Shown here: piece by piece, positions 4,577 to 34,287 of the stretch
Layout of the letters: each line of letters opens with the position of its first letter
Position numbering within the stretch: the stretch's first letter is position 1
Assembly (NCBI GenBank): GCA_905620495.1
Contig: CAJQTK010000033.1
Coordinates: 1-59,532 of the forward strand
DNA: 59,532 bases
Origin: an uncultured Candidatus Pelagibacter sp.
Lineage (GTDB): Bacteria > Pseudomonadota > Alphaproteobacteria > Pelagibacterales > Pelagibacteraceae
Reading direction: 5' to 3'
Program-made: the position numbers and the translations under genes
The notes under the pieces: model-generated
The model's input: the letters and a program-made list of their open reading frames with translations, nothing else
Database searches by the model: none
Told to the model about the DNA's origin: nothing

Positions 4577-4730
4577 TCACTGTACCCATCTGTATGTTTG
4601 CCTGAGAGTTTTATTCCGTCGGCGAGAACTTAATCTCTTTCCAGAGTTAATATGTTACGGTCCTTTTGCCTGAGAGATTCCTGGGTGGTTGCTCCTTCGG
4701 CGCTACGATAGTTTGTAGTCTCTCCCGTAT
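4577..4730 (-). ncRNA. Tandem glycine riboswitch upstream of gcvTHP
   Basis: Minus strand has two aptamer-like cores: GGGAGAGAC...GCCGAAGGAGCAACCACCCAGGAATCTCTCAGGCAAAAGGACCGT and CTCTGGAAAGAGA...CGCCGACGGAATAAAACTCTCAGGCAAACATACAGATGGG; immediately 5' of gcvT. Confidence 0.95.
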
Positions 4731-4736
4731 TCGAAA

Positions 4737-4765
4737 ATAATCTACCAGATGTATGGCAGAGTCAA
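4737..4765 (-). promoter_or_regulatory. Putative sigma70-type promoter for riboswitch-gcv transcript
   Basis: Minus strand TTGACT (4760-4765), 17-nt spacer, GATTAT (4737-4742) just upstream of the riboswitch; the -35 box overlaps the stop codon of the upstream DMT gene. Confidence 0.45.
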
Positions 4766-28108: not shown

Positions 28109-28723
28109 TTAATACTTTTGAATAAAAGCTATGATTATTGCAATTACTATCAATACACACGCTGAAATTGTGTTTATAACTTTTGGATTTGCTTTAATCC
28201 AAACAATTAATTTTCTAGCAAGTACAGCGTAAGCAATTAAAGATAAAAAATCTAACACTACATAAGTAGTGATCAAAATAAGAAATTGAAAAATATAATT
28301 TGAATTAAAATCAATAAACTGTGGAAAAATTAACGGAAAGAACATCCAAGCCTTAGGACTTGTTCCTGCAACTAAAAAACCATCTTTAAAAAAAGAAAAA
28401 AAACTTTTAGATGAAATATTTTTTGAATTAATATCTTTTGGTCTTGACTTATAAATATCGTAAGCAAGATAGATTAAATAAGCAATTCCAATCCACTTAA
28501 ATGTATTTAAAAAATTTGGGTTATCAACAAAAAAGGATCCAAGAACAAAGATTACTAAAGTTGCCTGAATAATATTTGCAGTGATATCTCCAAGAGCTGT
28601 CCAAATACATTTTTGAACTCCATAATTCATTGAATATGAAATGATCACAATTCTAGGTGTTCCAGGTGTAATAAATAAAAATAATATTATCTGAAGAAAA
28701 AGAAAGTAATTTAAGGGGAACAT
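28109..28723 (-). CDS. LysE/RhtB-family amino acid exporter
   Basis: 204 aa; TPGTPRIVIISYSMNYG, GTSPKAWMFFPLIFPQF. Confidence 0.88.
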   Translation of the reverse strand: MFPLNYFLFLQIILFLFITPGTPRIVIISYSMNYGVQKCIWTALGDITANIIQATLVIFVLGSFFVDNPNFLNTFKWIGIAYLIYLAYDIYKSRPKDINSKNISSKSFFSFFKDGFLVAGTSPKAWMFFPLIFPQFIDFNSNYIFQFLILITTYVVLDFLSLIAYAVLARKLIVWIKANPKVINTISACVLIVIAIIIAFIQKY

Positions 28724-28735
28724 TTTAATCGTTTG

Positions 28736-28783
28736 GATAGTCCTAAAAAAACCGGGAGCTAAAGATGGCTAAATAGGACTATC
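28736..28783. repeat. Perfect 10-bp inverted repeat in intergenic region
   Basis: GATAGTCCTA (28736-28745), 28-nt spacer, TAGGACTATC (28774-28783); spacer contains GCTAAAGATGGCTAAA. Confidence 0.8.
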
Positions 28784-28849
28784 GTGAAGTTATAATAGCA
28801 TGAGCCCAAATAGAATGCATTAATCATTTTTTTCAAATATAAGGGATTT

Positions 28850-29149: not shown

Positions 29150-29404
29150 ATGAAAAACGTAACAATTTATACAGGTCCACTTTGCAATTTTTGTGATGCA
29201 GCAAAAAAATTATTAACTAGAAATAATGTTGTATATAAAGAAATTAATATTGCAACGGTTGATGGTGCAATGGATGAAATGATTTCAAAAGCTAATGGTA
29301 AAAGAACAATTCCTCAAATCTTTTTTAATGATCAGCACGTTGGTGGTTACGATGATGTTAGAGCTTTAGAAAAAAGCGGTGAACTTAAAGATTTAATTAA
29401 ATAA
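29150..29404 (+). CDS. grxC: Glutaredoxin 3
   Basis: 84 aa; CNFC active site, TIPQIFFNDQHVGGYDD. Confidence 0.92.
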   Translation: MKNVTIYTGPLCNFCDAAKKLLTRNNVVYKEINIATVDGAMDEMISKANGKRTIPQIFFNDQHVGGYDDVRALEKSGELKDLIK

Positions 29405-29408
29405 ATAT

Positions 29409-30137
29409 TTAATCGATAACTGTTGCAGTAACATCAGGTTTTCCACCATACAGTCCTTGGTTTTGAGTGATTGCAGCTGCACAGCCACCACTTGAACCCT
29501 CATAAGCTAGTGCACTTGAAGTTCCAAAAGCAAGTTTTAATGTTGGAATTTTTCCTGGCTCTAGTTTTAATGCTTTTGTAAAAGCACCTCTATATTGAAA
29601 AAATTCGTCATCATTATCAACTGTTCCAGCAGCTTGCGCTGTTCCTGTTCCATCTCCTGCACTAATACTATTTATTTCATCACCTAAACCACTTATAGTC
29701 ATTGCCATATACATTGTGACTTCAGCTAAATCGCCAGCGGAAACGCTTCCGACAACATTTTTGGAAATATCCCCGCTATCCGTTGCTGTGTAACACGTTT
29801 GTGAACCATCATTTAAAGAACCTTTAATTGTAACCGCTCTTTTCATTGTTACTTGATAATATGTATAGCTTGTTCCAAAAGGAACTGCACTAAAGTTTCC
29901 ATAACTTGCAGCTGCTACACCAGCTGTTGTAGCTGCTATATCAATCGTCCCAGAATCGCCAGAACCAACAACTAAAGGAGATAAACAAGTTGAAGCACTA
30001 CTACCATCTGCACATAGCTCCAAATATGTCATTGTAATTTTATATGAGGTAGCTTCTCCAGTTGCACTAACTGCATAGCTTTTGTTTGATAGAAAAACTA
30101 AAACTAATAGAGAAAAAATAAATTTAATTTTTTTCAT
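29409..30137 (-). CDS. Secreted Gly/Ser/Ala-rich protein of unknown function
   Basis: 242 aa; signal peptide ending SYA, low-complexity beta-like sequence with several Cys; starts 2 nt after the barrel gene. Confidence 0.7.
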   Translation of the reverse strand: MKKIKFIFSLLVLVFLSNKSYAVSATGEATSYKITMTYLELCADGSSASTCLSPLVVGSGDSGTIDIAATTAGVAAASYGNFSAVPFGTSYTYYQVTMKRAVTIKGSLNDGSQTCYTATDSGDISKNVVGSVSAGDLAEVTMYMAMTISGLGDEINSISAGDGTGTAQAAGTVDNDDEFFQYRGAFTKALKLEPGKIPTLKLAFGTSSALAYEGSSGGCAAAITQNQGLYGGKPDVTATVID

Positions 30138-30139
30138 AA

Positions 30140-31012
30140 TTATTTACTTGTTACAATAATTGATCCTTGTATTTCTACGACCATCTTATTCCTCCTTCTA
30201 ACTTTTTCCTTTAATTTATGATCCATTTTTCTTTTTTCAAACATGTCATTTGATAAACCATCAGACATAACCATAGTTTTTTCTTTTGGTGGATAAATAT
30301 AATTAATATTTAAAGAGGTCTCGTCATCAACTCCAGTTAAAGAAGATTGGTCTAAACTCGCTACAACTTCAACAGAATTTGAAACGTCTAATTCTAAAGA
30401 ATAAATATTACCTTTTGTGTCACTTGATGCTTTTTCTGATTCCCATTTATAACCATTATAATTAATTCTTGCCCATGGAGCTCTTGGAATTTGTGATGTC
30501 AAATTATAGTCCCAACCTGATAAAACTTGTTCTGTATCACCATTTACAGCTTTAGAATTTGAAATTTTTGTATAGCTGTTTGCAGTTAAATCTAAAATTG
30601 AACCTTTAGCCTCTATACCTAGACCTAATCTTGATTGTCCATTTATTAATTCTCTATCGTAGAATGTATTAGCTCCAAACATAAAATTTTTATCTTCTGA
30701 TAATTTTCTGTAACCCAATCCTAAATTTCCTATAATTCTTCCAGAACTATTTATCTCTTGGTTCATTAAACTAAATTGAGTAAAAAAATTTGAATTATCA
30801 GTAGCTTCAATATCTCTTACACCTAGTATTGAAAAATTTAGCTGATCCTCATCACCATCATTATAATCTAAAGATACTTCTGTAATACCTTCACCAGGAA
30901 TTAAATTAGATATTTTTTCAGCTGCTTTATCTAGAGCTTGTGATGCTACATCTGCATTAGTTGCAGTAGAGATAAGTAAAGCAAGAATTGGTATTAAAAT
31001 TTTATTCATCAC
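30140..31012 (-). CDS. Inverse autotransporter (intimin/invasin-type) beta-barrel protein without a passenger
   Basis: 290 aa; signal peptide, IIGNLGLGYRKLSEDKNFMFGANTFYDRELINGQSRLGLGIEAKGSILDLTANSY, GWDYNLTSQIPRAPWARINYNGYKW, and a terminal VRRRNKMVVEIQGS motif like the end of IAT barrels. Confidence 0.8.
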   Translation of the reverse strand: MMNKILIPILALLISTATNADVASQALDKAAEKISNLIPGEGITEVSLDYNDGDEDQLNFSILGVRDIEATDNSNFFTQFSLMNQEINSSGRIIGNLGLGYRKLSEDKNFMFGANTFYDRELINGQSRLGLGIEAKGSILDLTANSYTKISNSKAVNGDTEQVLSGWDYNLTSQIPRAPWARINYNGYKWESEKASSDTKGNIYSLELDVSNSVEVVASLDQSSLTGVDDETSLNINYIYPPKEKTMVMSDGLSNDMFEKRKMDHKLKEKVRRRNKMVVEIQGSIIVTSK

Positions 31013-31109: not shown

Positions 31110-31553
31110 TTAAGCTTCTTTAAATTTTTCAAGCAAAGCAAAAATATCTTTTCCATCAGCCTTGCCTAATGGTTCGATTGTTTCTTTAAATTTTTTACCT
31201 AAACTTAACCCTTCTGATTTAGAATAATATAATAATCGTCTATTACATAATTTTTCTAATTTTCTTCTTACTGTTTCTTGAGACATTAATAAATTTTCTG
31301 AGACTGCAAAAATCGTCAATTTTCTATCTTGCATTAATTGTTTATTTTCTTCTGTTTCAGTTTCAGCGAAGGTTTCTGTCCAATCTAATGTTTTACCTTT
31401 ACTCATAGTTTGAAAAAGAAAATGTGAATATACTGTTAATAAAATCATGTGACTTTCATAATCATGTTTCACAAGTTTTTTTACATTTAAAAAATGATTA
31501 ATATGATGAGATATTGTTGAATATATTAATTTATTATTTATTGATTTAATCAC
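31110..31553 (-). CDS. Putative winged-helix transcriptional regulator
   Basis: 147 aa; C-terminal HTH-like LTIFAVSENLLMSQETVRRKLEKLCNRRLLYYSKSEGLSLG. Confidence 0.55.
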   Translation of the reverse strand: MIKSINNKLIYSTISHHINHFLNVKKLVKHDYESHMILLTVYSHFLFQTMSKGKTLDWTETFAETETEENKQLMQDRKLTIFAVSENLLMSQETVRRKLEKLCNRRLLYYSKSEGLSLGKKFKETIEPLGKADGKDIFALLEKFKEA

Positions 31554-31556
31554 GAC

Positions 31557-32693
31557 TTAAAGCAGGTTTTCTTTAAAGAAATTTATAAACTGAGGTAGAT
31601 ATTCTTCACCATGCTTACCTCCTACCATTGCACCTCTTTTTAAACATTTTTCTTTCTTAAACATTTTAAAAACTAATTTCATTGTTTTCTTTGGTTCTTC
31701 TTCAGTTGCTTTTATCCATTCTGCTTGAGAAGCAAAAAGTTTATATTTCTTTAAACCTAAATCAACTATTGGCCCAGTTACATTTCCTTCATTATCTATA
31801 CGAACAGCAGGACAAGTGTGCATAGTCATTGCCTTTACTTTTTTTGGTTTAAAACCTCCATGCCAATCATGATGCCAACCTTCCTTAATATCAATTTTTA
31901 TTTGTCCTGGTTTAGCTTTAATTTTTTTTACATGCTCTTCACAAGGTTTGGCCAAAGTAAGATTATCTATACTTCCATGAACATAAAGCATTTTAGTATT
32001 ACTTGTAATTTCTGGTTCTAAAAATAAACCTGCCATTCTACATTCGGCTGCTTCCCCTACTATTGCATCAAAACCCTCTGTCCCTTCTAAAAATAAAGAT
32101 GTAAATTTAATATCAGAAACCATAAGAGCATTAGTTCCCCCTCTTGAATGTCCAGTTAGACCTATCTTGCCATTTGATCTTGGATGATTTTTTAAAACTT
32201 TATAAGCCATCATTGTGTCAATTGCTGCAGAAGCAATTGTAGCATTGGATTGATCTCTCCATGTACTTGTCACCCCTCTGCTACAAAAGTTATCTATAAA
32301 CATTACGCCAATTCCCAAATCTAAAAGTTTTTTTTGGCCACTATTTATAAACTCACTAAAGATATAAGCATCTGCTCCACCACTTGCATGTGCCCAAATA
32401 ACAATCGGAACTTTACCTGATCCCTCAGGTAATAATAGATAGCTAGTAATTTCTATTGGATGTTTTTTATGTGCACCAACAATTACAGCTCTTTGATCAA
32501 AGCCTGTATAAGAATTAAATTTAATAAACTCACCTCCTGGAAATACTTTAGAAGCTGGTACTAAAAGAGATTTTTTTTTAGAACAGTGCTGTTTAGGGCT
32601 AAACTCTTTTATATTAATCTTTTTTTTATAATGGTCTGCATAAACGCTTGTTGTAAATAAAACTGTTATTAATATTAAAATTATTTTGTTCAT
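31557..32693 (-). CDS. Secreted dienelactone-hydrolase-like alpha/beta hydrolase
   Basis: 378 aa; signal peptide, VIWAHASGG, GHSRGGTNAL nucleophile elbow, WHHDWHGG. Confidence 0.82.
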   Translation of the reverse strand: MNKIILILITVLFTTSVYADHYKKKINIKEFSPKQHCSKKKSLLVPASKVFPGGEFIKFNSYTGFDQRAVIVGAHKKHPIEITSYLLLPEGSGKVPIVIWAHASGGADAYIFSEFINSGQKKLLDLGIGVMFIDNFCSRGVTSTWRDQSNATIASAAIDTMMAYKVLKNHPRSNGKIGLTGHSRGGTNALMVSDIKFTSLFLEGTEGFDAIVGEAAECRMAGLFLEPEITSNTKMLYVHGSIDNLTLAKPCEEHVKKIKAKPGQIKIDIKEGWHHDWHGGFKPKKVKAMTMHTCPAVRIDNEGNVTGPIVDLGLKKYKLFASQAEWIKATEEEPKKTMKLVFKMFKKEKCLKRGAMVGGKHGEEYLPQFINFFKENLL

Positions 32694-33025
32694 AAAATTT
32701 GAAACCTAAATTGGGTTAACAATAACCCTATTAGATTAAAGTGTCTAATAATCAAAAATATCTTGACCCACTCTGCTGCTTTAGATAATTTCATAACCTT
32801 AAAACCCTTAGACTCAGCTTTAGATATGTTCTTTGAATCTTCTCGTAAAGCTATTACAATATTGCTTATTCCACTGTCTTGTAAGTTTAATGCATGAGCT
32901 TGGGCTTGATTACCAAAACCAAATATTGCGATTCTTTTATTATTAATTAAGTCTATTTTTGAGTCACTTTGAGATTTATTATTTTTTGTTTTTTTTTCAG
33001 AATTAAATATATCGAATAAACCCAT
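32690..33025 (-). pseudogene. Truncated ketol-acid reductoisomerase (IlvC) N-terminal domain paralogue
   Basis: KRIAIFGFGNQAQAHALNLQDSGISNIVIALREDSKNISKAESKGFKVMKLSKAAEWV parallels [58 protein letters not shown] of the intact ilvC at 44603-45622; similarity then ends. Confidence 0.82.
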
Positions 33026-33130
33026 AACTATATTTTAACTTTGATTAATTTAGATACATTCATGAACCCAGACCCTACCAAGCCTCTAATCAGGTGTCTA
33101 GGTAATGGAATGATTGCCCCTGATCCGCGG

Positions 33131-33328
33131 TCAAAACTGTGCTATTCTTGGTCCTTTATGAATTGAATAACATTTACGGCATATTGGACCTGTGTTTAGG
33201 TTACCTTCTCCAAATTCCATAGTAATAGTTGCTTGAACTTGCTCGTGGTCTCCACAATTTATACAACGATCAATAGTTGGTGCTGTTGAATTTTCTGTTA
33301 GTGATGAATGACCTTTGGACCAACTCAT
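33131..33328 (-). CDS. Small zinc-ribbon-like protein of unknown function
   Basis: 65 aa; CINCGD...CRKCYS double CxxC. Confidence 0.6.
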   Translation of the reverse strand: MSWSKGHSSLTENSTAPTIDRCINCGDHEQVQATITMEFGEGNLNTGPICRKCYSIHKGPRIAQF

Positions 33329-33505
33329 ATTGAAATATTTTTTGGTAGAATTTTTGTAGAATATTTTTTTATTTATTTTTTAAAATAAAATTTTTTTTAA
33401 GTTAAAGGAATCTTTATTTCTATTTTATACCCGAAATCTATTTAGTTGTGACTAGCTGTCTAAAACCTTAATCTTTACAGCTATATAATCTAAAGGTTAA
33501 ACTAT

Positions 33506-33661
33506 ATGAATGGATCGTGTTTAAGAGTCCAAAACTACGTTCTAAACGCGAGTGGTACCTCTTCGAGTCCGTTCGGCTATGCAAGAACGAACGGAGCAAC
33601 AGCGACGTTCTTAGGAGCTCCGACAGAAAAAATACAACTCCAACGAGTCATTTGCTTATAA
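33506..33661. other. GC-rich intergenic segment with strong stem potential; also an open 51-aa frame on +
   Basis: CGTGTTTA/TAAACGCG (33516-33523 / 33543-33550), CCGTTCG/CGAACGG (33569-33575 / 33588-33594), alternative AAGAACG/CGTTCTT (33583-33589 / 33606-33612); composition unlike the AT-rich surroundings. Confidence 0.45.
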
Positions 33662-33664
33662 TAA

Positions 33665-33886
33665 ATACAAAATAATGATGAAAGATATACAGGTAATTTA
33701 GGATTTGGAAAAAGAATTCTAAGTGATGATAAAACTCTAATAACAGGTTTTAATACTTTTTTAGATCATGATGATCATGGTAATACAAGAGCAAGTATAG
33801 GTGCGGAATTAAAAGGAGCTGTTTTAGAATTAACATCTAATTATTATATGGGTATTAGCAATGGAACAGATGAAAAAGTTTTATGA
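33665..33886 (+). pseudogene. Degraded fragment of an inverse-autotransporter beta-barrel gene
   Basis: Frame reads IQNNDERYTGNLGFGKRILSDDKTLITGFNTFLDHDDHGNTRASIGAELKGAVLELTSNYYMGISNGTDEKVL*, parallel to GNLGLGYRKLSEDKNFMFGANTFYDRELINGQSRLGLGIEAKGSILDLTANSYTKISNS in the 30140-31012 gene. Confidence 0.8.
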
Positions 33887-33912
33887 AAATTGATTTTTAC
33901 TATGGGTAATTT

Positions 33913-34287
33913 CTATTCTTTAAACTTAAAGGTTAAACAAACACCGTTATTACAATACCTTTTACCTGTTGGCTTAGGTCCATCTTCAAAGATATGTCCA
34001 TGATGTCCACCACATTTTTTACAATGATATTCTACTCTCTCATAACCTAATAGAGTGTCAGTTTTAGTTTCAAAAGCATCAGGTAAAGAATCGTAAAATG
34101 ATGGCCAACCTGAACCACTTTCGTATTTTGAATTTGAATCAAATAATTTTTCACCACAGTTTGTGCAGTGATAACTGCCTTCTCTCTTCTCATGATTTAA
34201 CTCACTAGTTCCTGGCGCTTCAGTACCATCTTCAAATAAAATTAGTTTTTGTTCCGCAGTAAGATCTGGATTAATTTTTTTTGTCAT
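33913..34287 (-). CDS. msrB: Peptide-methionine (R)-S-oxide reductase
   Basis: 124 aa; ESGSGWPSFYD, YHCKKCGGHHGHIFEDGP, GKRYCNNGVCLTF. Confidence 0.95.
   Translation of the reverse strand: MTKKINPDLTAEQKLILFEDGTEAPGTSELNHEKREGSYHCTNCGEKLFDSNSKYESGSGWPSFYDSLPDAFETKTDTLLGYERVEYHCKKCGGHHGHIFEDGPKPTGKRYCNNGVCLTFKFKE

Follow-up and report, generated by a model that had tools for sequence, protein, structure and literature searches.

An inverted barrel-gene fragment beside msrB in a SAR11 genome, probably the leftover of a replaced barrel

The window, i.e., the whole 59,532-nucleotide stretch of contig CAJQTK010000033.1 from an uncultured Candidatus Pelagibacter sp., contains a site that is bordered by msrB on one side and by a glutaredoxin-like gene on the other. 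Between these borders lies a resident cassette, composed of a hydrolase, a regulator, a barrel and a partner gene, and about 1.2 kb of debris separates this cassette from msrB. The debris holds an ilvC fragment, a small CxxC ORF, a G+C-rich stretch and the barrel fragment that is the subject of this report.

29150–29404, plus strand: glutaredoxin-like gene, one border of the site (by synteny; the site is empty in genome G007)
29409–30137, minus strand: gene of the secreted partner, which follows the intact barrel directly; not assignable to any known family
30140–31012, minus strand: intact IAT_beta barrel without a passenger, not of the fragment's lineage (PF11924, E 3.9e-33; 88% to the copy in genome G062; placed by tree; 12 strands by AlphaFold; invasin/intimin fold)
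31110–31553, minus strand: winged-helix regulator-like gene of the resident cassette (weak HTH_DeoR match; 78% copy in the G062 cassette)
31557–32693, minus strand: secreted alpha/beta hydrolase-like gene of the resident cassette (weak Peptidase_S9/DLH matches; 62–63% copies in the G062 cassette)
32690–33025, minus strand: N-terminal fragment of the ketol-acid reductoisomerase gene (ilvC), the second truncated gene in the debris (PF07991, E 8.7e-18, profile positions 2–65 of 165)
33131–33328, minus strand: ORF of a small CxxC-CxxC protein in the debris (no Pfam match; rare, 2 of 90 relatives)
33440–33655, no strand assigned: unique stretch beside the fragment (33506–33655 has 46.7% G+C, within the top 0.2% of the window, whose overall value is 31%)
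33656–33884, plus strand: widest span over which the DNA is homologous to intact barrel genes in relatives (70–77% identity)
33665–33886, plus strand: open 73-codon piece of an IAT_beta barrel (PF11924, E 4e-14), spanning strands 4–7 and the beginning of 8; opposite in direction to msrB, ending at TGA, no start codon ahead of codon 62
33913–34287, minus strand: msrB (SelR domain; PF01641, E 1.6e-42; synteny), the other border; intact barrels related to the fragment follow immediately downstream and share the direction of msrB

The peptide quoted in the earlier note is the plus-strand frame of 33665–33886 letter for letter, that is 73 codons followed by TGA. Against Pfam IAT_beta (PF11924) it scores 53.2 bits (E 4.1e-14, profile positions 93–152 of 279), well above the curated cut-off of 22.3 bits, which places it in the profile as a piece of a barrel. 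It also matches the intact barrel of the window (E 1.6e-12, 50% identity), which is encoded about 2.65 kb away on the minus strand. The claim of a barrel fragment on the opposite strand, missing both ends, is therefore borne out, and the lack of similarity that was named as its refutation did not occur. At the DNA level the homology to intact genes of relatives starts at 33656–33669 and ends at 33879–33883, depending on the relative, with identity of 70–77%, and the open frame fills this piece of about 215–228 bp almost exactly. Chance is excluded, since an open frame of 73 codons would arise at such composition with a probability of about 3e-4 and a family match accompanies it. The fragment corresponds to residues ~86–164 of the intact barrel, i.e., to strands 4–7 and the first part of strand 8 among the predicted 12, and some 27 bp separate its end from the msrB stop codon. 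Signal peptide and both gene ends are absent, ATG occurs in frame only at codon 62, GTG and TTG do not occur at all, and candidate promoter sites in front of the fragment are as many as in shuffled sequence. A functional IAT_beta protein needs a signal peptide, a complete 12-strand barrel and a start codon; without signal peptide, barrel ends or a start before codon 62, a working barrel is impossible. The fragment is an ordinary gene remnant and is non-functional.

The remnant had been taken for a diverged second copy of the neighbouring intact barrel. In a tree of 58 barrels it falls inside an msrB-linked lineage (35 rows, together with 34 msrB-type barrels) with support of 99/91, a placement that rests on 73 residues, and the intact barrel of the window pairs with the G062 copy (100/100) in another lineage. 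The fragment is 76% identical to the barrel of Pelagibacteraceae AG-365-C14 and 68% identical to its nearest tree members, against 48% identity with its intact neighbour. The tree is also matched by a gap pattern typical of the lineage, in which six residues are missing from the loop ahead of DEKVL. Since the lineages differ and the identities are 48% against 68–76%, the fragment was not copied from the neighbouring barrel. The tree with barrels of relatives, which the earlier note had proposed, thus separates the two genes and favours the independent origin offered there over a second copy; the fragment is diverged as such, and the proper reference for its divergence is a different barrel lineage, not the intact neighbour. 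Its closest intact relative, the msrB-linked barrel of AG-365-C14 (76% over the fragment), shares the flanks (dehydrogenase, msrB and glutaredoxin); unlike the fragment, it is complete, reads in the msrB direction and is followed by a secreted partner.

Nor are the words "decayed" and "older" supported. The fragment contains no inner stops and no frameshifts and retains 23 of 24 strongly conserved positions. Its differences from an intact relative (L137) are distributed over the three codon positions as 23/12/26, which resembles the 22/11/32 counted between two intact genes (L137 and L135), and its dN/dS is like that of intact genes. In simulations with 0.3 neutral changes per site the frame was still open in only about 6% of trials. 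Conserved residues, codon-position pattern and dN/dS as in intact genes imply that the gene was truncated recently in comparison with the divergence. Judged from its sequence, the fragment appears to have been cut from a constrained gene fairly recently, being truncated and hardly mutated. Truncation against intact orthologues of the same site is evident, as all 74 named relatives are full length; accumulated inner stops and relaxed constraint, which mark old pseudogenes and are not expected of a fresh one, are lacking.

These 74 loci were found by name in a species-level genome collection, and all come from Pelagibacteraceae or Pelagibacter. The gene order in relatives is rodA, dadA, transporter, dehydrogenase, msrB, barrel and secreted partner, followed by glutaredoxin on the other strand. 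In 66 of the 74 loci msrB precedes the barrel and has the same orientation, and within the fetched stretch the other eight lack msrB; the earlier proposal to look for intact versions at this locus was thereby answered. In 399 genomes of the genus every other barrel match listed sits in a frame of at least 246 aa, so that among the 74 loci and these listed matches the piece in the window is the only short barrel, and no other was seen to run against msrB. Because members of its lineage beside msrB read in the msrB direction in relatives, the inversion represents a rearrangement, and it cannot serve as the sign of age that had been read into it. The content of the site differs among relatives, as the term hotspot had implied. 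In G007, which has the closest msrB match (93%), msrB and glutaredoxin are adjacent and the site is empty; in G058 and G022 the interval holds only an unrelated dioxygenase-like gene (a label given on reading the sequence); G004 carries a tandem of msrB, barrel and partner, and most other relatives carry a barrel and its partner. The tandem duplication of G004 (locus L085, 8107–12138) has its second msrB broken by a stop codon. In another genome (G065, locus L047, 1179–2342) a partner gene lies opposite the strand of its barrel and is fused in frame to a RodA-like start, which represents either a rearrangement or an amplification chimera. With its truncated gene by the flanks and its variable msrB–glutaredoxin content among relatives, the site resembles a flexible island with conserved flanks that retains a remnant. 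In contrast to the usual remnant at a site of turnover, the one described here has an inverted orientation, and its lineage is not that of the present resident.

The nearest relative found for the resident cassette is that of G062, at a different site, where msrB is absent from the fetched 20 kb; this speaks for a mobile cassette. Within the debris, the ilvC fragment is about 51% identical to the full-length ilvC of this genome (at ~45380, minus strand). The stretch 33440–33655 has no real match in 300 genomes of the genus, in phages or in viral contigs. It was also considered as a structured RNA or known element, and this was rejected, as Rfam returned nothing even at E 5 and no folding signal was found on either strand. 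No further pieces of the old barrel or of its partner were found in 32600–33912, and this genome, which is 66% complete, contains no barrel copies besides the two in the window. No inverted repeats, flanking repeats, inversion sites or recombinase were found beside the fragment that could account for its flipping. Elsewhere in the window, an rhtB sRNA (28718–28801) in front of a LysE-family transporter gene and a glycine riboswitch (4648–4737) are ordinary.

The intact barrel of the window was modelled by AlphaFold with 12 barrel strands (mean pLDDT 87, pTM 0.82), and its best fold matches are the β-domains of invasin (4e1t) and intimin (4e1s), with a TM of 0.81 to invasin (target length). The sequences in the window share with these inverse autotransporter β-domains the family PF11924 and the predicted 12-strand fold. 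Type Ve proteins combine a 12-strand β-domain near the N-terminus, which the intact barrel is predicted to possess, with a C-terminal passenger (Ig-like or lectin-like) on the same chain, which it lacks: the barrel ends at about residue 240, the protein ends at residue 290, and Pfam finds only IAT_beta. In contrast to invasin and intimin, the intact SAR11 barrels stop about 50 residues past the last strand and are passenger-less, and the fragment comprises only four to five strands and neither end. In all 73 readable loci the barrel is followed by a co-directional ORF of 230–298 aa, which starts between 17 bp before and 2 bp after the barrel stop codon and has a hydrophobic N-terminus in 72 of the 73. 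Such pairs lie at 29409–31012 in the window and at loci L172–L245 in relatives. The partner alignment has three invariant cysteines; no Pfam, NCBIfam or PDB sequence match was found for the partner, and no fold match at E <0.001. Similar pairs occur in Alphaproteobacteria outside SAR11 (L246, L247, L248, L252 and L253), and the SAR11 and non-SAR11 partner groups can be aligned with each other as profiles (probability 98.8, E 6e-17, where the second alignment includes one SAR11 member). The IAT_beta frames of most other Alphaproteobacteria in the sample are long enough to accommodate a passenger. A literature search for inverse autotransporters or invasins in SAR11 returned nothing relevant. 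By its gene layout the pair is a candidate split inverse autotransporter, i.e., a passenger-less barrel with a separate secreted partner, which we regard as a fair hypothesis.

With lineage, site, truncation, inversion and freshness established for the fragment, the best explanation is that it is probably a recent, non-functional remnant of an msrB-linked barrel that was formerly resident at the site. The former resident would have been such a barrel with its partner, located between msrB and glutaredoxin. A new cassette of hydrolase, regulator, barrel and partner would then have recombined in between the conserved flanks, with loss of the old barrel and partner, and illegitimate joining may explain why some 220 bp of the former barrel persist in flipped orientation amid the ilvC fragment and the unique G+C-rich stretch. 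Since no other part of the old barrel or partner remains at the site, the prior residence of the whole gene is something that we infer. In the nearest relative, G007, the site is empty, so a resident barrel may have been absent from the immediate ancestor as well.

That empty site also fits another account, in which the fragment was never part of a resident gene here and arrived as junk DNA along with the ilvC fragment and the G+C-rich stretch, either through import of the cassette or by a separate illegitimate insertion. The inversion and the surrounding unrelated debris, i.e., a diverged ilvC fragment, a rare CxxC ORF and a unique G+C-rich stretch, are in line with this; yet the lineage of the fragment is native to exactly this site, at the msrB border, so that its placement by chance would be a coincidence, and we consider such an import rather unlikely. 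The same match of lineage and site speaks against an artefact, in which single-cell amplification or assembly would have attached a piece of a barrel gene located at another place in the genome. Inversion, as seen at the junction of the fragment, is typical of amplification chimeras. Many of the named relatives bear isolate names of the single-cell type, and in the contig of L047 a partner gene is likewise flipped, where it continues from a RodA-like frame. The genome being only 66% complete, a source could have been unseen, but no other copy of the fragment was found in it; moreover, the piece sits inside a 59.5 kb contig and at least three unrelated pieces of debris would all need explaining, which makes a chimera improbable.

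Two further accounts connect the fragment with the intact barrel nearby. As a piece of a surface protein gene that lacks promoter and ends and has an intact gene close by, the fragment is laid out like a silent cassette, which could donate to the expressed barrel by gene conversion; a phase-variable inverted segment would be a variant of this account. Such elements are recognized by high DNA identity or flanking inverted repeats, whereas here the DNA identity to the intact barrel is only 58%, with a longest shared word of 11 bases, and flanking inverted repeats are absent. There are also no other silent copies in this genome and no short copies among the 74 loci and listed matches of relatives, and this account seems very improbable. 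That the fragment is an old, decaying duplicate of the window's own intact barrel might be supposed from two IAT_beta barrels lying 2.65 kb apart, but the different lineages and the closer identity to msrB-linked barrels, as well as the lack of inner stops and of losses at conserved residues, leave it with practically no probability; at the available resolution the tree refutes it.

Returning to the replacement of a resident barrel, it is possible, and proposed here only tentatively, that the site swaps whole alleles of a two-gene split inverse autotransporter, in which a passenger-less invasin-type barrel would export or display a translationally coupled secreted partner, and that the fragment would be what one swap of this kind left behind. 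The turnover of surface antigens suggested in the earlier note fits as far as turnover is concerned, and that the products would be surface antigens is suggested by the fold and the secretion signals. The barrel-plus-secreted-partner operon is consistent and testable, and as far as the searched libraries show, the partner is undescribed. Read as a leftover of the former resident, the fragment provides evidence that one barrel lineage displaced another at a fixed locus of SAR11, and the msrB–glutaredoxin interval may be used for studying the exchange of cell-surface genes in one of the most abundant bacteria of the ocean.
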